From positions 1 to 49,698 of the forward strand of contig CANITF010000023.1 of NCBI GenBank assembly GCA_947470515.1: 49,698 nucleotides of DNA, written 5' to 3'. Shown here one piece after another: positions 5,570-41,229 of this stretch (positions are counted from its first letter, which is position 1; the number at the start of each line of letters is the position of its first letter). The position numbers were made by a program, and so were the translations under genes. The DNA comes from Flavobacteriales bacterium (GTDB lineage Bacteria; Bacteroidota; Bacteroidia; Flavobacteriales_D; Crocinitomicaceae). Below the pieces are notes generated by a model. That model had not been told where the DNA came from, searched no databases, and saw nothing but the letters and a program-made list of their open reading frames with translations.

Positions 5570-6560
5570 AATCATAATTTGTTTGGTTTTTTTACCGTTT
5601 GGACTTCTCAGTCAAATTGATACGTTGCCTTATACGCTTTATACAAAAAAAGTAATACTATATTCTGATTTAGGCTACACCTCTGCCCCGTTTTCAATGC
5701 ATTATGATTACAGTACTGCTATACACAAACTAAAATACAAGAATAATTTTAGAACGATTTTAGGTTTTGGAATTTGTTATAAATGGTTTGCATTAAGAAT
5801 TGGAGTTCCCTTACCTGGTAATTTTAGACCTGTTAGTCGTTTTGGTAAAACTATTCCATTTGATTTTGGATTTGACTTTACCATTAAAAAAACATTTTTT
5901 GATATCGATATAAGAAGCTATCGAGGCTATGCAATTCTTGATGCATACAAATGGAATGACACACTAAACAAGCTGCATCCTAATGATATTAAACCAAACA
6001 TTAACACTGTAAGTTTCTCTGCCAATGTCTGGTATTTTCATGATAAGAATTTTAAAATGTCTGCGTTAAAAGGGAAAACTGGTCATTACGACAAAGAAGT
6101 GAAAACATGGTACATAAAAAATTCATTAAACATATTTGGCGTCGGCAATGGTAAGGAATCAATAACTCCTTATGCTTTAATTGATTCAACGCAAACAAAA
6201 ACCTCTTCAAGTGTTATTTCATCAATTGATATTGGTGCAATTCCTGGGTATGCATATGTGAATAAGTTGAAAAATTGGCAATTTTCTGCATTGTTTGGAG
6301 TTGGATTTGCTGTTCAAGCTAAATTTTACACAATCAATGAAATTTCTAGAGGATTTATTGGTATTGCTCCAAGATATGATATTCGATTAATTGGCGGGTA
6401 TTCTGTACCAAAGTTTTTTGTTTTTATTGTATCCGATTTCGATAATAAATCAATACGATTTAATGACTTTATTTACCGACAAACTTTTTATTCTTTAAAG
6501 TTACTCGGAGGAATCAGATTGAGTGACAAGAAAACTTCGAGAAAAAATAGAACAATTTAA
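5559..6560 (+). CDS. DUF4421-like envelope protein, probable outer-membrane beta barrel
   Basis: A 333-residue protein starting at a TTG (5559) that lies inside the end of the peptidase gene (11-base overlap). The TTG is needed because the signal peptide MKNKIIICLVFLPFGLLSQ begins there and no ATG fits. The mature part is rich in short amphipathic aromatic strands (for example FRTILGFGICYKWFALRIG) and ends in strand-like segments, which suggests a small outer-membrane barrel. The pattern resembles the DUF4421 family of Bacteroidota as I remember it. No enzyme motif is seen. Its stop codon directly abuts the stop of the convergent gene at 6561, with no spacer. Function unknown. Confidence 0.7.
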   Translation: MKNKIIICLVFLPFGLLSQIDTLPYTLYTKKVILYSDLGYTSAPFSMHYDYSTAIHKLKYKNNFRTILGFGICYKWFALRIGVPLPGNFRPVSRFGKTIPFDFGFDFTIKKTFFDIDIRSYRGYAILDAYKWNDTLNKLHPNDIKPNINTVSFSANVWYFHDKNFKMSALKGKTGHYDKEVKTWYIKNSLNIFGVGNGKESITPYALIDSTQTKTSSSVISSIDIGAIPGYAYVNKLKNWQFSALFGVGFAVQAKFYTINEISRGFIGIAPRYDIRLIGGYSVPKFFVFIVSDFDNKSIRFNDFIYRQTFYSLKLLGGIRLSDKKTSRKNRTI

Positions 6561-11639: not shown

Positions 11640-14174
11640 TTGACCAAAAAACGTTCCATACTGATACTTATCTTCGGCTTATTGTTAATAATGTTTGGCT
11701 CAACGGTTGGTTACGGTCAAACAAATAGAATAAAAGACACATTAAGACTAAATGATGATTCTTTTGAAGATATAATTTATTATAGTGCTCGTGATTCAAT
11801 TTATACGGATCTAAAAAAAAAGCAAGTTCATTTATACGGGGATGCTAAAGTAAATAATGGTGAAATCAATATGTCGGCTGGATACATTTTAATTGATTTA
11901 GATAAAAATGAAATCTTAGCTCAATATGCATTCGATAAAGACAGTAATAAAGTCGAATTTCCAAAATTCTCGGAAGGTTCAGAAGAAATAAAAGCTTCAA
12001 GTATCAGGTATAATTTCACTACTGAAAAAGGATATATTGAAGAATTAGCGATTCAACAAGATGAAATGTATTTATATATGGGTGTTGCGAAAAGGCATCC
12101 AAATGATCAAATTCATTTTAAAAACGGTCGTTTTACAACGTGTAATTTGGAAGAACCACATTATCATTTTCAACTTTCTAAAGCGGTGATGATTCCTGAT
12201 GAACGCATTGTGACAGGACCAATGAATCTATGGATTAAAGGAGTACCTACTCCACTTGGATTGCCATTTAGTGTTATTCCACAGCAAAAAGAACGTACAC
12301 ATGGGATACTTTTTCCGGAAGTAGTTCCATTATCAATTTATGGTTTTGGGGTTCAAAATCTTGGGTATTACCTACCTATCAATGAACACATGCAGACTTC
12401 CATATATGCAAACTTGTACTCAAGAGGAAGTTGGGGGTTGCGTAACAACCTAGAATACGCCAAAATGTATGGTTATCGTGGAAATTTAGACCTTGGTTTT
12501 CAGCAGTTTAAAAGTGGTTTTCCAGATAGTACAAAATCTAATAAATTGAGTGTCATTTGGATTCATAAAAAAGAATTAAAATCAAATCCATTTTGGAACT
12601 TTTCAGCGAATGTTAATTTTATTTCTGATAATAAATCAAAAAACAATTTAGATCCTTTAAATGCACAATATTTCAATAATAGCTTTAATTCTGACATGAA
12701 CATCACTAGATCGTTTCCAGGTAAACCAGTTTCAATGGGAATGAAAATGTCAATCAGACAAAATTCGTTGACTAAAAATATGTCATTAATATCACCCGTT
12801 TTAAATGTAAATATCACGCGATTTTTTCCATTTAAGAAGTTTATTCATGGAAGTAATGGCATGCAACAATTACTCTCTCGAATGGGTATGACTTACAACA
12901 TGGAAGGGCTAAACAAATCAACATTTAAGGACGATTTACTTCGCGATAAAAACTTCAGTGAAATTGGATCTCAATTTTTTAATGGATTTAATCAAAATGT
13001 TGCCATTCAAACAACTACCTCTTTTTTTAAAAATACAGTGAAGTTTAATCCATCGATTACTTATTCTAATAAAATTAATTTCCAACAGATTGAAAAGCAA
13101 TACAATATTGTAACTAATAAAACTGCGATTGATACACTTCGTAAATCTGGCATGGCGCATGAACTTACATTTAATGCGCAATTAACAACAATGATTTATA
13201 GTTATTATAAATTTATCGGAAAAAAAAATCCATTACTAAGACACATCATAACTCCTTCATTTGGATTTAGATACGTTCCTCAACTTAATCAATTAGTAAC
13301 GGCTAATGTTGGTGTAAATCAAGCATCCTTAACCTATTCACCTTTTGAGAACAGTATTTATAGTTCTTACAACGGCAAAGGAGCAGCACAATTAACTTTT
13401 GGATTTAATAATACGTTTGAATTGAAACGCAAATCAGATAAAGACACATTAACTGGATTTAAAAAAACACGTATCGTTGACATGTTATCAATCAATGGAA
13501 ATTATGATTTCATGAAGGATTCTATGAATCTATCAGATTTATCTTTAAACATGAGAATCAATCCTATTGAATGGTTGAATTTCGTGGCAACATCAGTTTT
13601 TAGTCCTTATGGTTGGATTGACAGCACTGGAGCTACGATTTCTCAATTTGCATTAAGTTCAAAAAATACATTGGGAAGGTTTACTCGGAATAATTTCACC
13701 ACAACTTTAACGCTGACTTCTAAGAAAAGTCGAGAAGTTTTAAATGAAACGAAAGATTTAATTAATTCCAATTGGAATGCCGATTTCAATTACTACGCAT
13801 TGCATCCCGAATACATTTTAAATTTCAATATTCCTTGGAAAATGTCCTTTTCTCATGTTTATTCAGTTGATGTAAATACGGATAAAAAAGCAACTAACAC
13901 TTCGACATTCAACCAACTGCAAACATTGGTTTTAAATGGCGATATCAGCTTCACAAAAAGATGGAAACTTGCGTCAACATTAAATTTTGACATGATTAAT
14001 CCCCAAATTACAAATGCGCGCTTTACGCTGTCTAGAAACATGCATTGCTGGGCTTTATCTTTCTATTGGACTCCAATCGGCGGAAACAAAAGTTTTCTTT
14101 TAAGCATAAGAAATACATCCTCAATGTTCCAGGATGCGAAAATTGATATCCGAAAGCCACCAGTTTTCTTATAA
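11640..14174 (+). CDS. lptD: LptD-like outer-membrane LPS assembly protein
   Basis: An 844-residue outer-membrane protein that would place lipopolysaccharide in the outer leaflet. A signal peptide covers about 1-26. Residues about 50-190 form the OstA/LptA-like beta-jellyroll region (DLKKKQVHLYGDAKVNNGEI and following), and the rest is a large aromatic-rich barrel. It is of the size usual for the Bacteroidota version. The start is a TTG at 11640: an ATG at 11611 is in another position of the frame and meets a stop before this point, and starting later would remove the signal peptide. LptE is not visible nearby. It is divergent from the amidase/MCE run, which also serves the envelope. Confidence 0.85.
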   Translation: MTKKRSILILIFGLLLIMFGSTVGYGQTNRIKDTLRLNDDSFEDIIYYSARDSIYTDLKKKQVHLYGDAKVNNGEINMSAGYILIDLDKNEILAQYAFDKDSNKVEFPKFSEGSEEIKASSIRYNFTTEKGYIEELAIQQDEMYLYMGVAKRHPNDQIHFKNGRFTTCNLEEPHYHFQLSKAVMIPDERIVTGPMNLWIKGVPTPLGLPFSVIPQQKERTHGILFPEVVPLSIYGFGVQNLGYYLPINEHMQTSIYANLYSRGSWGLRNNLEYAKMYGYRGNLDLGFQQFKSGFPDSTKSNKLSVIWIHKKELKSNPFWNFSANVNFISDNKSKNNLDPLNAQYFNNSFNSDMNITRSFPGKPVSMGMKMSIRQNSLTKNMSLISPVLNVNITRFFPFKKFIHGSNGMQQLLSRMGMTYNMEGLNKSTFKDDLLRDKNFSEIGSQFFNGFNQNVAIQTTTSFFKNTVKFNPSITYSNKINFQQIEKQYNIVTNKTAIDTLRKSGMAHELTFNAQLTTMIYSYYKFIGKKNPLLRHIITPSFGFRYVPQLNQLVTANVGVNQASLTYSPFENSIYSSYNGKGAAQLTFGFNNTFELKRKSDKDTLTGFKKTRIVDMLSINGNYDFMKDSMNLSDLSLNMRINPIEWLNFVATSVFSPYGWIDSTGATISQFALSSKNTLGRFTRNNFTTTLTLTSKKSREVLNETKDLINSNWNADFNYYALHPEYILNFNIPWKMSFSHVYSVDVNTDKKATNTSTFNQLQTLVLNGDISFTKRWKLASTLNFDMINPQITNARFTLSRNMHCWALSFYWTPIGGNKSFLLSIRNTSSMFQDAKIDIRKPPVFL

Positions 14175-15800: not shown

Positions 15801-16379
15801 GTGCTCGACTTTTCATTTAAGAATAACAAACAACCTCAGGTTGGAAATATTTTAATTTCTGACCCTTTTTTGGATGAAGATTTCTTCAGAAGATCAGTCA
15901 TTCTATTGTGTGATCATAATGATGACGGAACATTTGGATTTGTTTTAAACAACTATCTCGATATTGATTTACATGAGGTCGACGAAAGTTTCCCTGACAA
16001 TCATGCGCGCATAAGTGTTGGTGGACCAGTTGAAACGCAAAGTTTATTTTATATTCATTCATTAGGAAACGTTATTGAAGGAAGTATTCCAATTAACGAT
16101 GAGCTATTTTTCGGTGGAGAATATGAACAAATACAAGAACTTTTATTATTAGAACCATCCAACAATTCTAAAATTCGTTTTTTCTTGGGTTATTCAGGTT
16201 GGGGTAAAAACCAATTGAAAGGAGAGTTGAAAGAAAACTCTTGGATTGTAGCAAACAATATAGAAACAGAAGATATTTTAAATACCAAAAATGATTTATT
16301 CTGGAATTTTTGCCTAGAAAAACAAGGCGAACGTTTTAAAACAATTGCAAAATTCCCACTAAACCCTAATGAAAATTGA
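15801..16379 (+). CDS. YqgE/AlgH family protein (UPF0301)
   Basis: A 192-residue soluble protein of the YqgE/AlgH family; the length is typical. Hallmarks are GNILISDPFLDEDFFRRSVILL near the start, the GFVLNN segment, the GGPVE motif, and the C-terminal FLGYSGWGKNQLKGEL block. The family is widespread; AlgH was once described as a transcriptional regulator in Pseudomonas but its molecular role is unclear. The start is a GTG at 15801, which puts the N-terminus where relatives begin. A TAnnTTTG-like string overlaps that GTG and is probably chance. The gene appears to stand alone between the CstB-like gene and the rarA run. Confidence 0.9.
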   Translation: MLDFSFKNNKQPQVGNILISDPFLDEDFFRRSVILLCDHNDDGTFGFVLNNYLDIDLHEVDESFPDNHARISVGGPVETQSLFYIHSLGNVIEGSIPINDELFFGGEYEQIQELLLLEPSNNSKIRFFLGYSGWGKNQLKGELKENSWIVANNIETEDILNTKNDLFWNFCLEKQGERFKTIAKFPLNPNEN

Positions 16380-16413: not shown

Positions 16414-16455
16414 AAAACTTGTAATTCGTAACTAGCAACTCGTAACTATTAATTC
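16414..16455. repeat. Heptamer-periodic repeat between yqgE and rarA
   Basis: From 16421, seven-base units run in strict phase: gtaattc, gtaacta, gcaactc, gtaacta and ttaattc, with aaaactt before them. The units vary at positions 1, 2, 5, 6 and 7 but keep a gtaa-ctn-like core. The same unit family forms a longer array at 38243-38312. It ends 12 bases before a candidate promoter box of rarA. Confidence 0.6.
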
Positions 16456-16467
16456 AATTAACAAGCT

Positions 16468-16500: not shown

Positions 16501-17781
16501 ATGTCATTCCTTGCACCTTTAGCAGAACGTATGCGTCCAAAAAAACTGGATGAATATATTGGGCAGGAACATTTGTTGAAAAATGGAGCTTCTCTTAGAC
16601 GAGCACTGGATTCTGGTTTGATTCCGTCCATGATTTTTTGGGGTCCACCTGGTGTTGGAAAAACGACTTTGGCGCAACTTATTGCACTTGAATTAAAACG
16701 TCCAATTCATACGTTGTCAGCTATTTCTTCTGGCGTGAAAGACGTTCGAGAAATCATCAATCGCGTTGAACAAGGTGGAATGTTTCAACAAAAAGGAACC
16801 ATTTTGTTCATTGATGAAATTCACCGTTTTTCGAAATCACAACAAGATTCACTTTTAGGTGCAGTTGAAAAAGGTTTAATTACATTAATTGGTGCTACAA
16901 CTGAAAATCCTTCTTTTGAAGTTATTTCGGCTTTATTGTCACGTTGTCAGGTTTATACCTTGACTTCTCACACAAAACAAGATTTACTCAACCTGCTTGA
17001 AAGAGCTATACGTGAAGATATCGTTCTGAAAGAGAAAAATATCATACTAGAAGAAACAACTGCACTTCTAACCATTTCTGGTGGTGATGCACGGAAACTG
17101 TTAAACGTTTTTGAGATTATCATCGGAACATTTAAAAGTGATACAATAATTAAAATCACAGATGAAATTGTTCAAGAATCAGCGCAGCAAAGCCTTGCTA
17201 TGTATGACAAAGATGGTGAACAACATTATGATATAATTTCTGCATTTATAAAATCAATAAGAGGAAGTGATCCAAATGCTGCGATTTATTGGTTAGCCCG
17301 AATGGTAGAAGGAGGCGAAGATCCAAAATTTATCGCAAGAAGGTTAATTATTTCTGCAGCAGAAGATATTGGGTTAGCAAATACGAATGCGCTTTTGATT
17401 GCCAACAATTGCTTCCAGGCCACTGAAACAGTTGGTTTTCCTGAAGCACGAATAATTTTGGCGCAATGCACAATCTATCTTGCTTCTTCACCAAAAGGAA
17501 ACGGTGCTTATATGGCAATTAATCGTGCACAAGAAGAAGTTCGCAAAAGCGGAAACCTAGGAGTTCCATTACCCCTAAGAAATGCTCCGACAGCGTTAAT
17601 GAAGGAGTTGGGATATGGTAAAAACTACTTGTATTCACATGATTACCCCGGCAATTTTGTTCAACAAGAGTTTCTACCTGAAGAAATAAAAGGAACTGCT
17701 TTCTTTGCAGCAGGCAGCACTAAAAAAGAACAAGAACTAGAAGAAATCATTCATAAATTATGGGGGGATAAATACAAATAG
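16501..17781 (+). CDS. rarA: Replication-associated recombination protein A, AAA+ ATPase
   Basis: A 426-residue AAA+ ATPase of the RarA/MgsA/WHIP group, which acts at stalled replication forks and gaps. Walker A is GPPGVGKT at 48-55 and Walker B is LFIDEIH at 102-108; sensor 1 is the GATTEN segment that follows. The C-terminal part (about 240-420) includes the conserved tetramerisation block: DPNAAIYWLARM, EDPKFIARRL, SAAEDIGLAN and the GYGKNYLYSHDYPG motif. Length is normal. It leads a run of six genes with almost no spacing; its TAG is followed at once by the ATG of the acyltransferase. Confidence 0.96.
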   Translation: MSFLAPLAERMRPKKLDEYIGQEHLLKNGASLRRALDSGLIPSMIFWGPPGVGKTTLAQLIALELKRPIHTLSAISSGVKDVREIINRVEQGGMFQQKGTILFIDEIHRFSKSQQDSLLGAVEKGLITLIGATTENPSFEVISALLSRCQVYTLTSHTKQDLLNLLERAIREDIVLKEKNIILEETTALLTISGGDARKLLNVFEIIIGTFKSDTIIKITDEIVQESAQQSLAMYDKDGEQHYDIISAFIKSIRGSDPNAAIYWLARMVEGGEDPKFIARRLIISAAEDIGLANTNALLIANNCFQATETVGFPEARIILAQCTIYLASSPKGNGAYMAINRAQEEVRKSGNLGVPLPLRNAPTALMKELGYGKNYLYSHDYPGNFVQQEFLPEEIKGTAFFAAGSTKKEQELEEIIHKLWGDKYK

Positions 17782-36422: not shown

Positions 36423-37553
36423 CTACTTTCCTTCACCTACCAAATCAAAATAGATTTTCTCGTATAATGGTAAAATCTTTGCCAAATCAAAATCATGCGC
36501 TCGGTCAACAGCTTTATGTTTGAACCAATTTAACGTTTCTTCATCCTTGAAAATTTTCAATGCATTATTCGCCATATCTTCTACATCGCCGACATTTGAT
36601 AGGAAACCTGTTTCACCGTGAACATTTACTTCTGGAATCCCACCAGTATTTGATGAGATAACAGGAACACCAACAGCCATTGCTTCTAAAGCAGCCAAAC
36701 CAAAACTTTCTGTTTCTGAGGGCAACAAGAATAAATCTGAAATTTCTAGAACATGGGCCGTATCTCTTACATTTCCTAAAAATAATACTTTGCCACACAA
36801 GTCCAATTCACGCACTAATCGCTCTAAATAAGAACGTTCTGGTCCATCACCTGCAAGAATAAGTTTAGAAGGAATTTTTTTGTTTACTAGAGCAAAAACC
36901 TTCACAACATCTTCTACCCGTTTAACTTTTCTAAAATTGGATACATGACATAAAATCCTTTCATTATCCAAAGCATATTTTCTCCGTACTTCACTTGCTG
37001 CATTACTGGGCTTCAGATTTGGCGCAATAAAATTCGGTATGACATGGATTTCTCTTGTTGTATTAAAATGAGCATGCGTATCATTTTTTAAACTTTCTGA
37101 AACTGCAGTTACAGCATCAGATTGATTAATGCAAAAAGTAATTACAGGTTCAAACGATGGGTCTTTTCCAACTAACGTAATATCCGTTCCATGAAGAGTA
37201 GTAATATAAGGAATATCAATTCCTTGCGATTTTAAAATCTGTTTCGCCATATATGCTGCTGAAGCATGAGGAATAGCATAATGAACATGTAATAAATCCA
37301 ATTTCTCGTATTTTACAACATCAACCATTTTACTTGTCAATTCTGTTTCATATGGTTGATATTCAAACAATGGATAGTCACTAATTGCGACTTCATGGTA
37401 AAAAATATTCTCACGAAAACTTCCCAATCTTACAGGCTGCGAATAGGTGATAAAATGAACTTGATGTCCTTTTTTAGCTAATGCCTTTCCCAATTCTGTT
37501 CCTACAACTCCGCTCCCGCCAAACGTTGGGTACAATACAATTCCTATTTTCAT
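36423..37553 (-). CDS. bshA: N-acetyl-alpha-D-glucosaminyl L-malate synthase BshA
   Basis: A 376-residue GT4 glycosyltransferase that joins UDP-GlcNAc to L-malate, the first step of bacillithiol synthesis. Markers include MKIGIVLYPTFGGSGVVGTE at the N-terminus, HVHYAIPHASAAY, TTLHGTDITLVG and the retaining-GT4 block PSETESFGLAALEAMA (E-x7-E). Length is typical. In Bacteroidota bshA is often next to the GH3/beta-lactamase fusion that is found here upstream at 38305-41229, although a repeat region of 751 bases lies between them. bshB and bshC are not in the window. Confidence 0.94.
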   Translation of the reverse strand: MKIGIVLYPTFGGSGVVGTELGKALAKKGHQVHFITYSQPVRLGSFRENIFYHEVAISDYPLFEYQPYETELTSKMVDVVKYEKLDLLHVHYAIPHASAAYMAKQILKSQGIDIPYITTLHGTDITLVGKDPSFEPVITFCINQSDAVTAVSESLKNDTHAHFNTTREIHVIPNFIAPNLKPSNAASEVRRKYALDNERILCHVSNFRKVKRVEDVVKVFALVNKKIPSKLILAGDGPERSYLERLVRELDLCGKVLFLGNVRDTAHVLEISDLFLLPSETESFGLAALEAMAVGVPVISSNTGGIPEVNVHGETGFLSNVGDVEDMANNALKIFKDEETLNWFKHKAVDRAHDFDLAKILPLYEKIYFDLVGEGK

Positions 37554-37607: not shown

Positions 37608-38212
37608 AAACACATAGAAACATAAAACACATAGGTTTATACACGAATTAACTCATCACTCATCACTCATCACAATTCGACACTTCGGTAAACTCATTGG
37701 AGTCAATATCATTGCATCGCTCAACACTCAGCACTTTTTACTTTTTACTTTTTACTTTTTTCACCACATAGACACATAGGTCACATAGGAAATCAAACTT
37801 TAAACTCCATCTCGACTGTCGCTTATTTCGACACTTCGATAAACTCATTGGATTCCAGCTCATTGCATCGCTCAACACTCCTCACTTTTTACTTTTTACT
37901 TTTTACTTTTTTTTACCACATAGACACATAGGTCACATAGGAAATCAAACTTTAAACTCCATCTCGACTGTCGCTTATTTCGACATGCTCATTGCATCGC
38001 TCAACACTCCTCACTTTTTACTTTTTACTTTTTACTTTTTTCACCACATAGACACATAAGTCACATAGGAAATCAAACTTTAAACTCCATCTCGACTGTC
38101 GCTTATTTCGACATGCTCATTGCATCGCTCAACACTCAGCACTTTTTACTTTTTACTTTTTACTTTTTTTACCACATAGACACATAGGTCACATAGGAAA
38201 TCAACTTTAAAT
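37608..38212. repeat. Tandem array of a 128-151 bp unit built from short repeats
   Basis: The 751-base gap between bshA and the GH3 gene holds a tandem array. The landmark attgcatcgctcaacactc begins at 37711, 37862, 37991 and 38119, giving periods of 151, 129 and 128. The first interval has about 22 extra bases (an acttcgataaactcattgg segment) that later units lack. Each unit contains a run of four ctttttn heptamers, three cacatag words within 27 bases, and a ctcgactgtcgctta segment. Before the array lie three ACTCATC heptamers (37651-37671) and a cacatag-rich stretch (37608-37634). No open frame spans it. The units differ by few substitutions, so the array is recent or homogenised. Function unknown. 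Confidence 0.85.
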
Positions 38213-38242: not shown

Positions 38243-38312
38243 CTAACTCCTCGCTTATAATTTGTAACTTGTAATTAGTAATTAGCAACTTGTAATTAGC
38301 AACTTCACTTCG
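38243..38312. repeat. Heptamer-periodic array before the GH3 gene end
   Basis: Ten seven-base units in exact phase run from 38243 to 38312, with gtaactt, gtaatta and gcaactt as the main types (gtaatta three times, gcaactt twice). The last units enter the 3' end of the GH3 fusion gene, whose stop codon lies at 38305-38307. The unit family is the same as at 16421-16455. Confidence 0.65.
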
Positions 38313-41229
38313 TTCTTTCTATAACAGCTTCGTATATCACTTTTTGTATTTCTGTTCTAATGCTCCAGTCCCTAATTTTCCAATTATCTTGATCTGGACA
38401 TACACGATTGGATAAAAACACATAATTAATATCATATTTAGGATCTGCCCAAACAAGTGTACCCGTAAAACCAGAATGACCAAAACTCAACTGCGACGCG
38501 CCTTCATAACATGGTCCACCACCACCAGGGGAAGGTCTATCAAACCCTGCTCCTCGTCTGTTTCCTTCAAATTGCGCTTTTGTGAATTCCTCGACCACTT
38601 CAGGTTTCATATAAGTAACATTTCCATAGCGTCCTTTGTTCAAGATAAGTTGCATTAAGGAAGCTAAATCTGTTGCGTTGGAAAATAATCCGGCATGTCC
38701 TCCAATGCCTCCAAGCATGGCCGCGCCTGGATCATGAACATATCCATGTACCAATTGCTTTCTGAAAACTTGATCATTTTCGGTTGGCACAATTCGATCT
38801 AGCGGATAATAATTACGTGGTTGGTAACGCATCGAACGCAATCCCATCGGTAAATAAAATTGCTGCATTAGATAATCTTGGAACGCTTGACCTGCTTGCT
38901 TTTCAATGATTTTCTTAATAAAATAATAACCTAAATCTGAGTATACATATTTTTTTACACCCAAACTAGTGGCTAGAATCTGTTTGTAAATACTATCCGA
39001 AAATCCGTTTTTAATCCAAATATCCTGAGCTACTTGCGCATCAAATCCGGCTTTTTGAGTTTTTGAATAAATTTCAGTATTTAATTCTCCGTTCTTTAGA
39101 GTTCCTTTATAGAAGGGAATCCATGCTGGTAAGCCCGCTTGATGCGCCATCATATCACGAATTAAGATGGAGCCAAATGATCCATTTCCTGTAACTTCTG
39201 GAATATAATCTGATAGGTTTTTAGATAAACTAAATTTATCATCAGTCTGTAATTTCATGATTCCAACAGTAGAACCTGCAATTTTCGAAACAGATGCTAT
39301 ATCGTACAAATCGTTGTTACGAACTGAGTCTTTGGATTCGTATTGCTGTGTTCCAAAGCTTTTTCGATAAATAATTTTGCCTTCAACAGCAACAACAATC
39401 TGACAACCAGGAAAAGCACCTTTTTGAATTGCATTTTCAGCTATTTGATCAATTTCCTTTAATTTTTGAGCACTTATTCCTAATTCTTCAGGTTGAGAGA
39501 ATTTTAATCTACCACCCCATTTAATTTGTATTCCATGTTCTCTCGCAAATAAATGATTCACGGTAATCGGCAATCTCCCGACCATTGGCACCGCTCCAAA
39601 TATCATTTGTCCAACAGTATTTTGAAGTAATGCATTATTTTCATATCCCACCATTACGGCATCAACAGTAGATAAATCGATGTTGTTTTGCAATACAAGT
39701 GGATTTCCGAAAACAACCAAAACTGTTTCTTTATTTGCAGGAATACTTGCTATGAATTTATTAAGATCATTCCCATAACCGAAATTATTAACTGGACGAA
39801 CAGTTCCTGAATGCAAAGCGACAATAATCAAGTCATATTGTCCGCTACTTTTTGAAAATGCCGTTACTGCTTCTCCAGCGGTAAAGAATTGAAAGTAATC
39901 AACATCGGCAAATAAATCTAAAGATTCACGAAAAGACGTGGTGTGAATACCAATTGAAACATGTGCAATTTTTTTATCCAGTCGCTGAAGTGGTAAAATA
40001 TCTGAATCATTTTTTAACACTGTAACGGCTTTCTCATATACTTCTTTCTTCGCTAAATCCATTTCTGCCTTACTGAATTCAGTTGCTTTTTTTGGCGCGA
40101 CAACAAATTTATATTTGGATTTTAGAATCTTAAGACAACGTTCATCAATTTCCGTTTTTGAAATTTGGCCTTTCTCAACTTTCGTTTTTATGGCGTTAAT
40201 TGCTTCATCAACACTTTCCGGAAATAACAATATATCGCAACCTGCTTCAAAAGCTTTAACTACAACTTCTGTTTTTCCATATTTATCAGCTACGGCTTTC
40301 ATATTTAAAGCATCAGAAATAACCAATCCTTGAAAACCCATTTGCCCCTTAAGAATATCTCCAATAATCTTTTTTGATAAACTACTGGGTGTTCCTGTAT
40401 TATCTAAAGCCGGAACATTTAAATGACCAACCATAACTGATGACGCTCCCATTCTAATTCCCTCTTGAAACGGAAAAAAGTCAATTGCTTCTATTGTTTT
40501 CAATGATTCTGTAACTGTTGGTAACTCAAAATGCGAATCTTTATCTGTATTACCATGTCCAGGGAAATGTTTGATGCTGGTCATGACACCATTGCCTTCC
40601 ATTCCACGCACAAATGCTTTCACATGATCAGCTACTTTTTTTGGATTTTCTCCAAACGATCTAAAACCAATAACCGGATTCTTTGGGTTGCTATTAACAT
40701 CTGCAACTGGAGCAAAATTGATATGAATTCCCATTTCTTGACATTCAAATGCCATCATTGAAGCAATTTTTTCTGATAATACAACATCATCAGCTGCACC
40801 AATCGTGTAGGCGAAAGGAAAACGTTCACCATCGAATAAGCGCATGTTTGTTCCCCATTCAGCATCCATTCCGATTAATAAAGGAACTTTTGCTACAGAT
40901 TGAAACCGTTTTATCGAAGAAACTAAATTTGCCTTTTCGCCTTGAAAAAAGATTATTCCACCAACTTTTTCATTCGTCACCAGACTTTCTACTTCTTTTA
41001 AATGCTTTTCACCTTGATTGGAATAGGCAGCAACCATGAAAAACTGACCGATTTTTTCATCCAATGACATGTTACTCAATTTCTCTGTTGCCCATTTGTC
41101 AGCATCAACGTCATTCTTAATCGCAAATTTAACTTGTACTCTATCACTTTTAATAAGCGAAAAAACAAAAGGTGTTGAGCCAAAAATCAACAAAAAGAAA
41201 ATGATTGAAAAATTGCGCTTTGAATTCAT
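38305..41229 (-). CDS. GH3 beta-N-acetylglucosaminidase fused to serine beta-lactamase-like domain
   Basis: A 974-residue exported protein with a signal peptide of about 24 residues. Residues 45-375 are a NagZ-type GH3 domain: KHFPGHG at 220-226, the Asp231-Ser-His233 dyad that acts as acid/base, and nucleophile Asp306 in VISDALNM. Residues about 400-560 resemble a GH3 C-terminal domain. Residues 580-974 are a class C beta-lactamase/CubicO-type hydrolase with Ser646-x-x-Lys649 (SVSK), Tyr763-Ser-Asp and an HSG near 935. The fusion is known in Bacteroidota and probably acts on peptidoglycan: the GH3 part removes GlcNAc and the second part may act on peptide or amide bonds. Its 3' end is inside the heptamer array. 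bshA follows downstream. Confidence 0.92.
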   Translation of the reverse strand: MNSKRNFSIIFFLLIFGSTPFVFSLIKSDRVQVKFAIKNDVDADKWATEKLSNMSLDEKIGQFFMVAAYSNQGEKHLKEVESLVTNEKVGGIIFFQGEKANLVSSIKRFQSVAKVPLLIGMDAEWGTNMRLFDGERFPFAYTIGAADDVVLSEKIASMMAFECQEMGIHINFAPVADVNSNPKNPVIGFRSFGENPKKVADHVKAFVRGMEGNGVMTSIKHFPGHGNTDKDSHFELPTVTESLKTIEAIDFFPFQEGIRMGASSVMVGHLNVPALDNTGTPSSLSKKIIGDILKGQMGFQGLVISDALNMKAVADKYGKTEVVVKAFEAGCDILLFPESVDEAINAIKTKVEKGQISKTEIDERCLKILKSKYKFVVAPKKATEFSKAEMDLAKKEVYEKAVTVLKNDSDILPLQRLDKKIAHVSIGIHTTSFRESLDLFADVDYFQFFTAGEAVTAFSKSSGQYDLIIVALHSGTVRPVNNFGYGNDLNKFIASIPANKETVLVVFGNPLVLQNNIDLSTVDAVMVGYENNALLQNTVGQMIFGAVPMVGRLPITVNHLFAREHGIQIKWGGRLKFSQPEELGISAQKLKEIDQIAENAIQKGAFPGCQIVVAVEGKIIYRKSFGTQQYESKDSVRNNDLYDIASVSKIAGSTVGIMKLQTDDKFSLSKNLSDYIPEVTGNGSFGSILIRDMMAHQAGLPAWIPFYKGTLKNGELNTEIYSKTQKAGFDAQVAQDIWIKNGFSDSIYKQILATSLGVKKYVYSDLGYYFIKKIIEKQAGQAFQDYLMQQFYLPMGLRSMRYQPRNYYPLDRIVPTENDQVFRKQLVHGYVHDPGAAMLGGIGGHAGLFSNATDLASLMQLILNKGRYGNVTYMKPEVVEEFTKAQFEGNRRGAGFDRPSPGGGGPCYEGASQLSFGHSGFTGTLVWADPKYDINYVFLSNRVCPDQDNWKIRDWSIRTEIQKVIYEAVIERTK

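Follow-up and report, generated by a model that had tools for sequence, protein, structure and literature searches.

Heptanucleotides are reported to be the commonest category of long repeat unit in most genomes surveyed (Mrazek et al. 2007, as related in PMC4679880 and PMC4692102), and the accounts of bacterial heptamer excess in the published descriptions drawn on here are hypotheses, not tests. Described systems include the heptameric repeats GGGAATC of Xanthomonas and GGGGA(C/T)T of Nostoc (Rehm et al. 2015, PMC4692102), for which 70 inverted convergent array pairs are given in Xcc, with its 186 repeats, and 75 in Xac, with 183 (PMC4692102). TAACTGA direct repeats are described from Beggiatoaceae, Cyanobacteria and five Bacteroidetes (MacGregor 2015, PMC4679880), and the seven-base repeats TDNGATT and NNTGAGT from P6b of the Nostoc trnL intron (Kaasalainen et al. 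2015, PMC4476775).

The stretch of 49,698 nucleotides analysed here (the window) comes from contig 23 of a 2.99-Mb draft genome of a Flavobacteriales bacterium (G000; 34% GC, 99.9% complete). A sequence-only reading of the window had singled out seven-base repeats common to two distant intergenic sites, and both indeed consist of tandem heptamers of one degenerate word, AAYTNGY. The seven-base phasing that it saw in an ACTCATC run and in ACTTTTT runs nearby is real throughout, and exact.

Heptamer arrays in the window

The two sites and their surroundings comprise the following features.

15801 to 16379, plus strand: AlgH-like (DUF179) gene flanking site 1
16416 to 16457, plus strand: site 1, six AAYTNGY-type heptamers between the AlgH-like and RarA/MgsA genes, without an inverted partner
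16501 to 17781, plus strand: RarA/MgsA AAA+ ATPase gene flanking site 1 (MgsA_C and AAA domains), which we take to be RarA
36423 to 37553, minus strand: family 4 glycosyltransferase gene flanking the site 2 region
37651 to 37673, plus strand: ACTCATC x 3.3, exactly period 7; on the minus strand, an NNTGAGT-type heptamer
37676 to 38211, plus strand: 128-bp tandem array of 3.9 copies, in which ACTTTTT heptamers, CACATAGG-type words and TCGAC modules form a mosaic
37733 to 37760, plus strand: ACTTTTT x4, first copy within the 128-bp array, exactly period 7
37884 to 37911, plus strand: ACTTTTT x4, second copy, exactly period 7
38013 to 38040, plus strand: ACTTTTT x4, third copy, exactly period 7
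38141 to 38168, plus strand: ACTTTTT x4, fourth copy, exactly period 7
38245 to 38300, plus strand: site 2, eight heptamers (best part 38259-38299), without an inverted partner
38305 to 41229, minus strand: gene for a glycosyl hydrolase family 3 protein fused to a beta-lactamase domain, flanking site 2

The units of site 1 read AACTTGT AATTCGT AACTAGC AACTCGT AACTATT AATTCAA, and site 2 ends immediately before the stop codon of the minus-strand gene at 38305-41229. Scored against the AAYTNGY model, sites 1 and 2 reach 39.1 and 52.3, compared with a top score of 20.7 among 200 dinucleotide shuffles of the window. No inverted repeat of at least 12 bases is found in the intergenic region of either site. 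Two-unit NNTGAGT occurs in the window only as the ACTCATC run, and two-unit TDNGATT occurs once, at 5859. Within the window alone, dropping the two site-bearing intergenic regions abolishes the lag-7 excess.

The CACATAGG-type words of the 128-bp array are 8/9-mers, standing beside ACTTTTT and TCGAC-type modules. The sister genome has similar modules, reordered, at another intergenic location (L128, around 12063-12308).

Period and word across genomes

Since the word model was written after the arrays had been seen, genome-wide counts are better evidence than window scores. Three consecutive AAYTNGY units yield 61+67 = 128 exact matches in the whole genome (overlaps counted), spread over many contigs, and the reversed three-unit pattern yields 0+0. 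The lag-7 excess in intergenic DNA expected by the sequence-only reading is present beyond the window: in a fixed-rule sample made up of the initial 20 kb of contigs 1-20 (400 kb), 13 intergenic runs of 14 or more consecutive lag matches occur at period 7 and 12 at its multiple, period 14, against at most 2 at each of periods 4-6, 8-13 and 15. Coding DNA of the same sample and the window shows no such excess, with 2 period-7 runs compared with up to 3 at other periods, and in a 450-kb sample loose lag-7 arrays number 23 in 41 kb of intergenic DNA versus 1 in 408 kb of coding DNA. A larger sample of 670 kb (353 intergenic regions, 61.8 kb) was picked in part for having arrays, so that the fixed-rule figures are the unbiased ones; these include 26 loose arrays at period 7 and at most 5 at any period that is not one of its multiples. 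The AAYTNGY scoring scan of the 353 regions finds 57 arrays in 34 of them, against none in letter-shuffled and one in reversed sequence. A word-free lag search of the 670 kb finds 57 loose arrays, a number equal to the scored count by coincidence, and at most 6 at each other period from 4 to 30, multiples of 7 aside. Tandem seven-base units are therefore in excess over other periods in this genome, dispersed, and concentrated between genes. The earlier proposal of a common generating process stands in a broader form: a single period, carried by many different words and with no comparable excess at others, makes a process that either generates or tolerates seven-base units likely.

Three AAYTNGY units in a row are found in 23 of 60 genomes, our own included and some of them incomplete drafts. 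Among congeners, 13 of 25 have any match, and G004, G005, G007, G008, G011, G016 and G024 have 50-352 each. The array-rich species fall into two groups with poor ones between them in trees of the glycosyl hydrolase (23 rows) and of RarA (17 rows), in which support for the separating forks is in part only moderate. In a phylum-wide set, 20 of 118 genomes (own included) match, 18 of these with only 1 to 9 matches. The reversed control is not empty in some relatives, suggesting that other heptamer words are common there; AAYTNGY compared with the control gives 9 versus 28 in G088, 19 versus 19 in G093, 1 versus 11 in G107 and 0 versus 81 in G153 of the phylum-wide set, and 0 versus 9 in G018 and 0 versus 13 in G055 of the 60-genome set. 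Other heptamer words may abound in G018, G042, G055 and G153, all of which have reversed-pattern matches and no AAYTNGY.

A scan of the genomes of 84,980 species for the related five-unit pattern NARTNRC gave at least 80 loci; the 80 listed, some from one genome, are by their titles 39 cyanobacterial, 18 from Bacteroidota, 1 from Ignavibacteriales and 22 from others; a minority of the loci listed lie inside predicted open frames. The four-unit NARTNRC string exceeds its reversed control in each of 13 cyanobacterial genomes that hold such loci (smallest margin 926 versus 558), and five Bacteroidota genomes are mixed, one equal to the control and one with more control than forward matches. The AAYTNGY three-unit string itself occurs 9 to 1502 times per genome in 10/10 cyanobacteria tested, drawn from the 13 chosen for NARTNRC repeats, with 0 to 5 for the reversed control. 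A likeness to cyanobacterial repeats "in form only", as had been suggested, is thus too weak a description. Unselected stretches of four cyanobacteria also show a period-7 excess, with few exact units in common with G000, G005 and G008. A broad lexicon common to both phyla was considered and rejected (2 exact units shared, 1.3 ± 1.0 expected); nearest unit distances between the phyla are somewhat below shuffles (1.21 versus 1.45 ± 0.10).

Unit grammar, inverted arms and turnover

The grammar of the unit was read from 30 arrays found by lag alone and fitting an AA.T register, 11 of 41 not fitting and being left out. Adjacent units in G000 differ at positions 1, 2 and 4 in 13-17 of 172 comparisons and at positions 3, 5, 6 and 7 in 47-66, the choice of register lowering the former figures while leaving unaffected the predominance of C/T among position 3 differences (39/51). 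The same predominance appears in G008 (34/41; 18 of 21 arrays used), where positions 1, 2 and 4 stand out less, with differences in 15-21 of 120 comparisons against 23-41 at the other positions. Of 220 pairs of units two apart, 61 are identical, more than within-array shuffles give (39.1 ± 4.0), which points to duplication in 14-base blocks. Adjacent units are identical in 51 of 277 pairs; shuffling of units across the whole sample gives 14.7 ± 3.5, which indicates local homogenization, and within-array shuffles give 46.8 ± 4.0, which the observed count does not exceed significantly. The sample of this genome holds 21 distinct exact units, a few possibly by chance.

Two further explanations for the units were rejected. 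Locus-to-locus copying of whole arrays is not borne out by shared mixed triplets (4 versus 1.7 ± 1.3, maximum 5 in 300 shuffles). Nor do stop codons in every frame supply the reason for seven, as units are not significantly richer in stops than letter-shuffled ones (0.76, 0.88 and 0.71 of units in G000, G008 and G005, versus 0.75, 0.76 and 0.81).

Arrays tend to face one another in a single orientation. Among 23 neighbouring array pairs within one region, 12 run minus then plus and none plus then minus. An opposite array lies within 110 bp on the inner side of 28/57 arrays in G000 and on the outer side of 0/57 at a score threshold of 14 (the same at 12; one outer partner at 8 and 10), stretches L130-L140 in this count having been chosen partly for their arrays. 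The unselected 400 kb gives 5 inner versus 0 outer of 14, G005 6 versus 0 of 13, and G008 a weaker 7 versus 2 of 25 within 200 bp. As a general law the one-sided rule fails, being absent from unselected cyanobacterial stretches (2 inner versus 3 outer of 21); reversed sequence also gave 5 arrays in these stretches, so the word model is less specific there. The cyanobacterial loci listed by the NARTNRC scan give no clear picture, with inner partners for 6 and outer partners for 3 of 40 arrays, and 30 arrays in reversed sequence.

Thirteen inverted pairs fold as hairpins with z from -7.7 to 0.2 relative to mononucleotide shuffles, nine at -2.5 or below. The pair at z 0.2 (L055) looks by eye like a word-model artefact on direct repeats. 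The inner segments of the 13 pairs, also by eye, contain TTTGAACCA or its complement in 6 and a variant in one more, and a core containing TTTTTGAACCA with heptamer arms is found at several loci. With up to 2 mismatches allowed, AGTTTTTGAACCAATA is found at 40 sites of the genome and its reversed control at 16. The 12 core sites that have 0-1 mismatch all adjoin heptamers; contig 51 holds four of these as tandem copies, contig 15 another three and contig 27 two more. Sites with two mismatches lack adjoining heptamers in 16 of the 18 fetched (30 of 40 sites were fetched in all). A short core is thus dispersed at unrelated loci inside heptamer arrays, as small dispersed repeats are reportedly defined.

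On contig 51 of G000, at about 12698-12929 (L346-L349), the core and heptamer module recurs in tandem every 47-61 bases, which suggests secondary amplification of the hairpin element. Between two inverted heptamer arms at L132:11865-11984 stands a hairpin that resembles a terminator and has A and T tracts, and a link to transcript ends is possible. Other Bacteroidota present the opposite topology at L254:7907-7994 and L262:4030-4138, where NAATAAC heptamers form the outer hairpin arms.

Genomic context was counted over intergenic regions of at least 60 bases. Arrays occur in 17/46 convergent, 20/146 tandem and 6/63 divergent regions (convergent versus divergent, p=0.0007); the unselected sample gives 9/27 convergent and 4/38 divergent (p=0.03), and the bias is not significant in G008 alone (6/21 versus 4/35, p=0.15). 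Arrays in tandem-gene regions are not closer to the 3' end of the upstream gene (11/24).

Turnover is visible in the sister genome G005, whose aligned blocks are roughly 85-97% identical to G000. The median length difference is 31.5 bases over 12 regions with arrays and 2.0 over 45 without, and differences of at most 5 bases are found in 2/12 and 28/45, respectively (p=0.008). Changes of more than 20 bases (7/12 versus 13/45, p=0.088), unchanged length (1/12 versus 12/45, p=0.26) and a length-matched comparison of array and array-free regions (p=0.06) do not reach significance. Eleven of the 12 array regions differ in length between these different species, by exactly 7 bases in one; the differences for the rest of the 12 are 0, 4 or 19-548 bases. 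The rewritten sequence is often of the same kind, with GATAGTT versus GATGAGT arrays in one case and a heptamer array versus CACATAGG-type words in another. Site 1 is the unchanged region, with the same length and one substitution in G005; by eye, all four species compared have an array stretch of equal length there, G007 and G023 showing more changes.

Origin of the arrays and comparison with known repeats

The best explanation, to which we give a probability of roughly 0.55 as a whole, is that there is nothing exceptional about sites 1 and 2: both would belong to a family of degenerate tandem heptanucleotides specific to the lineage, grown by slippage or duplication in tolerant intergenic DNA, with a subset of the arrays spread as a hairpin element. 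Loops of 7 or 14 bases may evade mismatch repair. Replication slippage or short tandem duplication would gain and lose DNA in 7- and 14-base steps; the period of 7, the word family, the local 14-base block duplication and the inverted arms are observed here. Arrays would persist mainly where they are harmless, above all between convergent gene ends, and a subset may have multiplied as a short dispersed hairpin element with heptamer arms around the TTTTTGAACCA-containing core; core dispersal, faster length change and the context bias are likewise direct observations. Slippage does not account for one spelling across loci and phyla, nor for the restricted positions of the unit: the mechanism leaves unexplained the A, A and T at positions 1, 2 and 4, the C/T of position 3 and the recurrence in Cyanobacteria, and the last is a fact that any pure slippage model must explain. 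It is rather doubtful, in our estimation, that a conserved cellular machine dictates the spelling AAYTNGY (NARTTRC when read from the opposite strand) across phyla and, in this lineage, builds it into hairpins. If one did, a polymerase or single-strand-binding protein that contacts seven bases would be a candidate, and two clades of the genus and several cyanobacteria would have reached one spelling independently.

Among the alternatives to a slippage-grown family, the arrays might belong to a short, mobile hairpin element that resembles cyanobacterial small dispersed repeats or REPINs and is copied by an enzyme encoded elsewhere in the genome. The core with heptamer arms common to several loci and the folding of several elements well below mononucleotide shuffles (z down to -7.7) speak for it, as do the strong-type Y1 transposase genes found in 8 of 9 congeners with at least 12 matches, and in this genome. 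We nevertheless consider it unlikely, since many arrays, both window sites included, have neither core nor partner, and inspection of the Y1 neighbourhoods weakened a link to REP-associated transposases (REPIN/RAYT) that had looked strong from gene presence. These neighbourhoods cover 22 of 26 matches, 15 strong and 6 weak ones in detail, several pieces ending at contig ends. An array lies 88-136 bases off in 3 of 16 strong genes, all orthologous (G024, G008 and G016), and 2.2 kb away in a fourth (G002); the other 12 have none on the fetched pieces, among them the sixteenth (L181 of G023, a 2,260-base piece in which only arrays were looked for). The two Y1 genes of this genome, also counted among the 12, are not adjacent to arrays, the nearest array being 9.3 kb from one, with none in 5.4 kb around the other. 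Several Y1 genes carry REP-type palindromes of their own, and array-rich G004 has no Y1 match, whereas array-free G025 has two strong ones. The G000 genes, at L048:404-865 (contig 8) and L183:2437-3000 (contig 33), stand next to palindromes of GTCCCGTAGGGAC and GACTTCTCTGAAGTC types, a separate repeat system.

The arrays could instead be kept as multi-site binding arrays, or as RNA hairpins, for a putative protein reading seven bases per subunit, its contacts being the fixed positions of AAYTNGY. The low differences at positions 1, 2 and 4 (13-17/172, against 47-66/172 elsewhere, a contrast that the choice of register favours), the C/T predominance at position 3 (39/51 in G000; 34/41 in G008, with its weaker contrast), the one-sided partners (28/57 versus 0/57) and the recurrence of the grammar in a distant phylum would all fit such a protein. 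However, arrays are mostly not retained at orthologous places, are absent as matches from 12 of 25 congeners, are rarer in divergent, promoter-bearing regions, and in unselected cyanobacterial stretches lack one-sided partners (2 inner versus 3 outer of 21), and this reading, too, seems to us improbable. Templated addition of heptamers by a reverse transcriptase, which would agree with a single word family present at many loci whose word order is not copied, is disfavoured and highly improbable: RVT_1 has no match in this genome, complete to 99.9%, or in array-rich G007 and G011, but is present in array-free G001, G003, G010, G014, G019, G021 and G022. The suggestion of a reverse transcriptase as maintenance gene is left unsupported, given the lack of an RVT_1 match here. 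Chance low-complexity sequence, for which the AT-richness of the DNA (34% GC) might argue, carries a negligible probability against 128 AAYTNGY matches versus 0 reversed and 57 scored arrays, where letter shuffles give 0 and reversed sequence 1.

The genus combines array-rich with array-free species, and with the word family and the core both defined and the arms arranged as inverted pairs, slippage, binding and mobility become separable by experiment. Among the results of our searches of open-licence papers we found no description of the AAYTNGY family, and one may still be in print.

A family of probably slippage-grown arrays, some of them in hairpins, has evident parallels. Small dispersed repeats embedded in heptamers were reportedly described in Nostoc punctiforme by Elhai et al. 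in 2008; the likeness lies in a short dispersed core inside tandem heptamers. The short tandemly repeated repetitive sequences (STRR) of cyanobacteria, as described, share the heptanucleotide unit. The Nostoc P6b repeats, as described, are also degenerate heptamers, make up both sides of a stem and change in 7- and 14-base steps, but lie inside a group I intron (PMC4476775). The TAACTGA repeats resemble ours in being abundant intergenic heptamers scattered over the same phyla, with further heptamers alongside in Gramella and Aequorivita and with close relatives that have shorter regions without obvious repeats; unlike AAYTNGY, TAACTGA is described as a fixed word, mostly just upstream of start codons in Maribeggiatoa (PMC4679880). 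Two-unit TAACTGA has 0 matches in the 670-kb sample of this genome and 6 in the cyanobacterial stretches, and two-unit GGGAATC and GGGGAYT likewise have 0 in the 670 kb. The Xanthomonas and Nostoc repeats are described as degenerate heptamers, some positions fixed and others free, that lie mostly between genes, often as inverted pairs of arrays, are commoner between convergent than divergent genes and vary in length between related species, much as here (PMC4692102). They differ in that their word is G-rich and quadruplex-capable, that a dispersed core does not figure in that description, and that they sit close to the upstream gene (PMC4692102), which AAYTNGY arrays do not (11/24 nearer the upstream 3' end). 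Intergenic heptameric repeats are therefore a known kind, the repeats of Xanthomonas, Nostoc and Beggiatoaceae being the closest to those described here, from which the word AAYTNGY sets this family apart.
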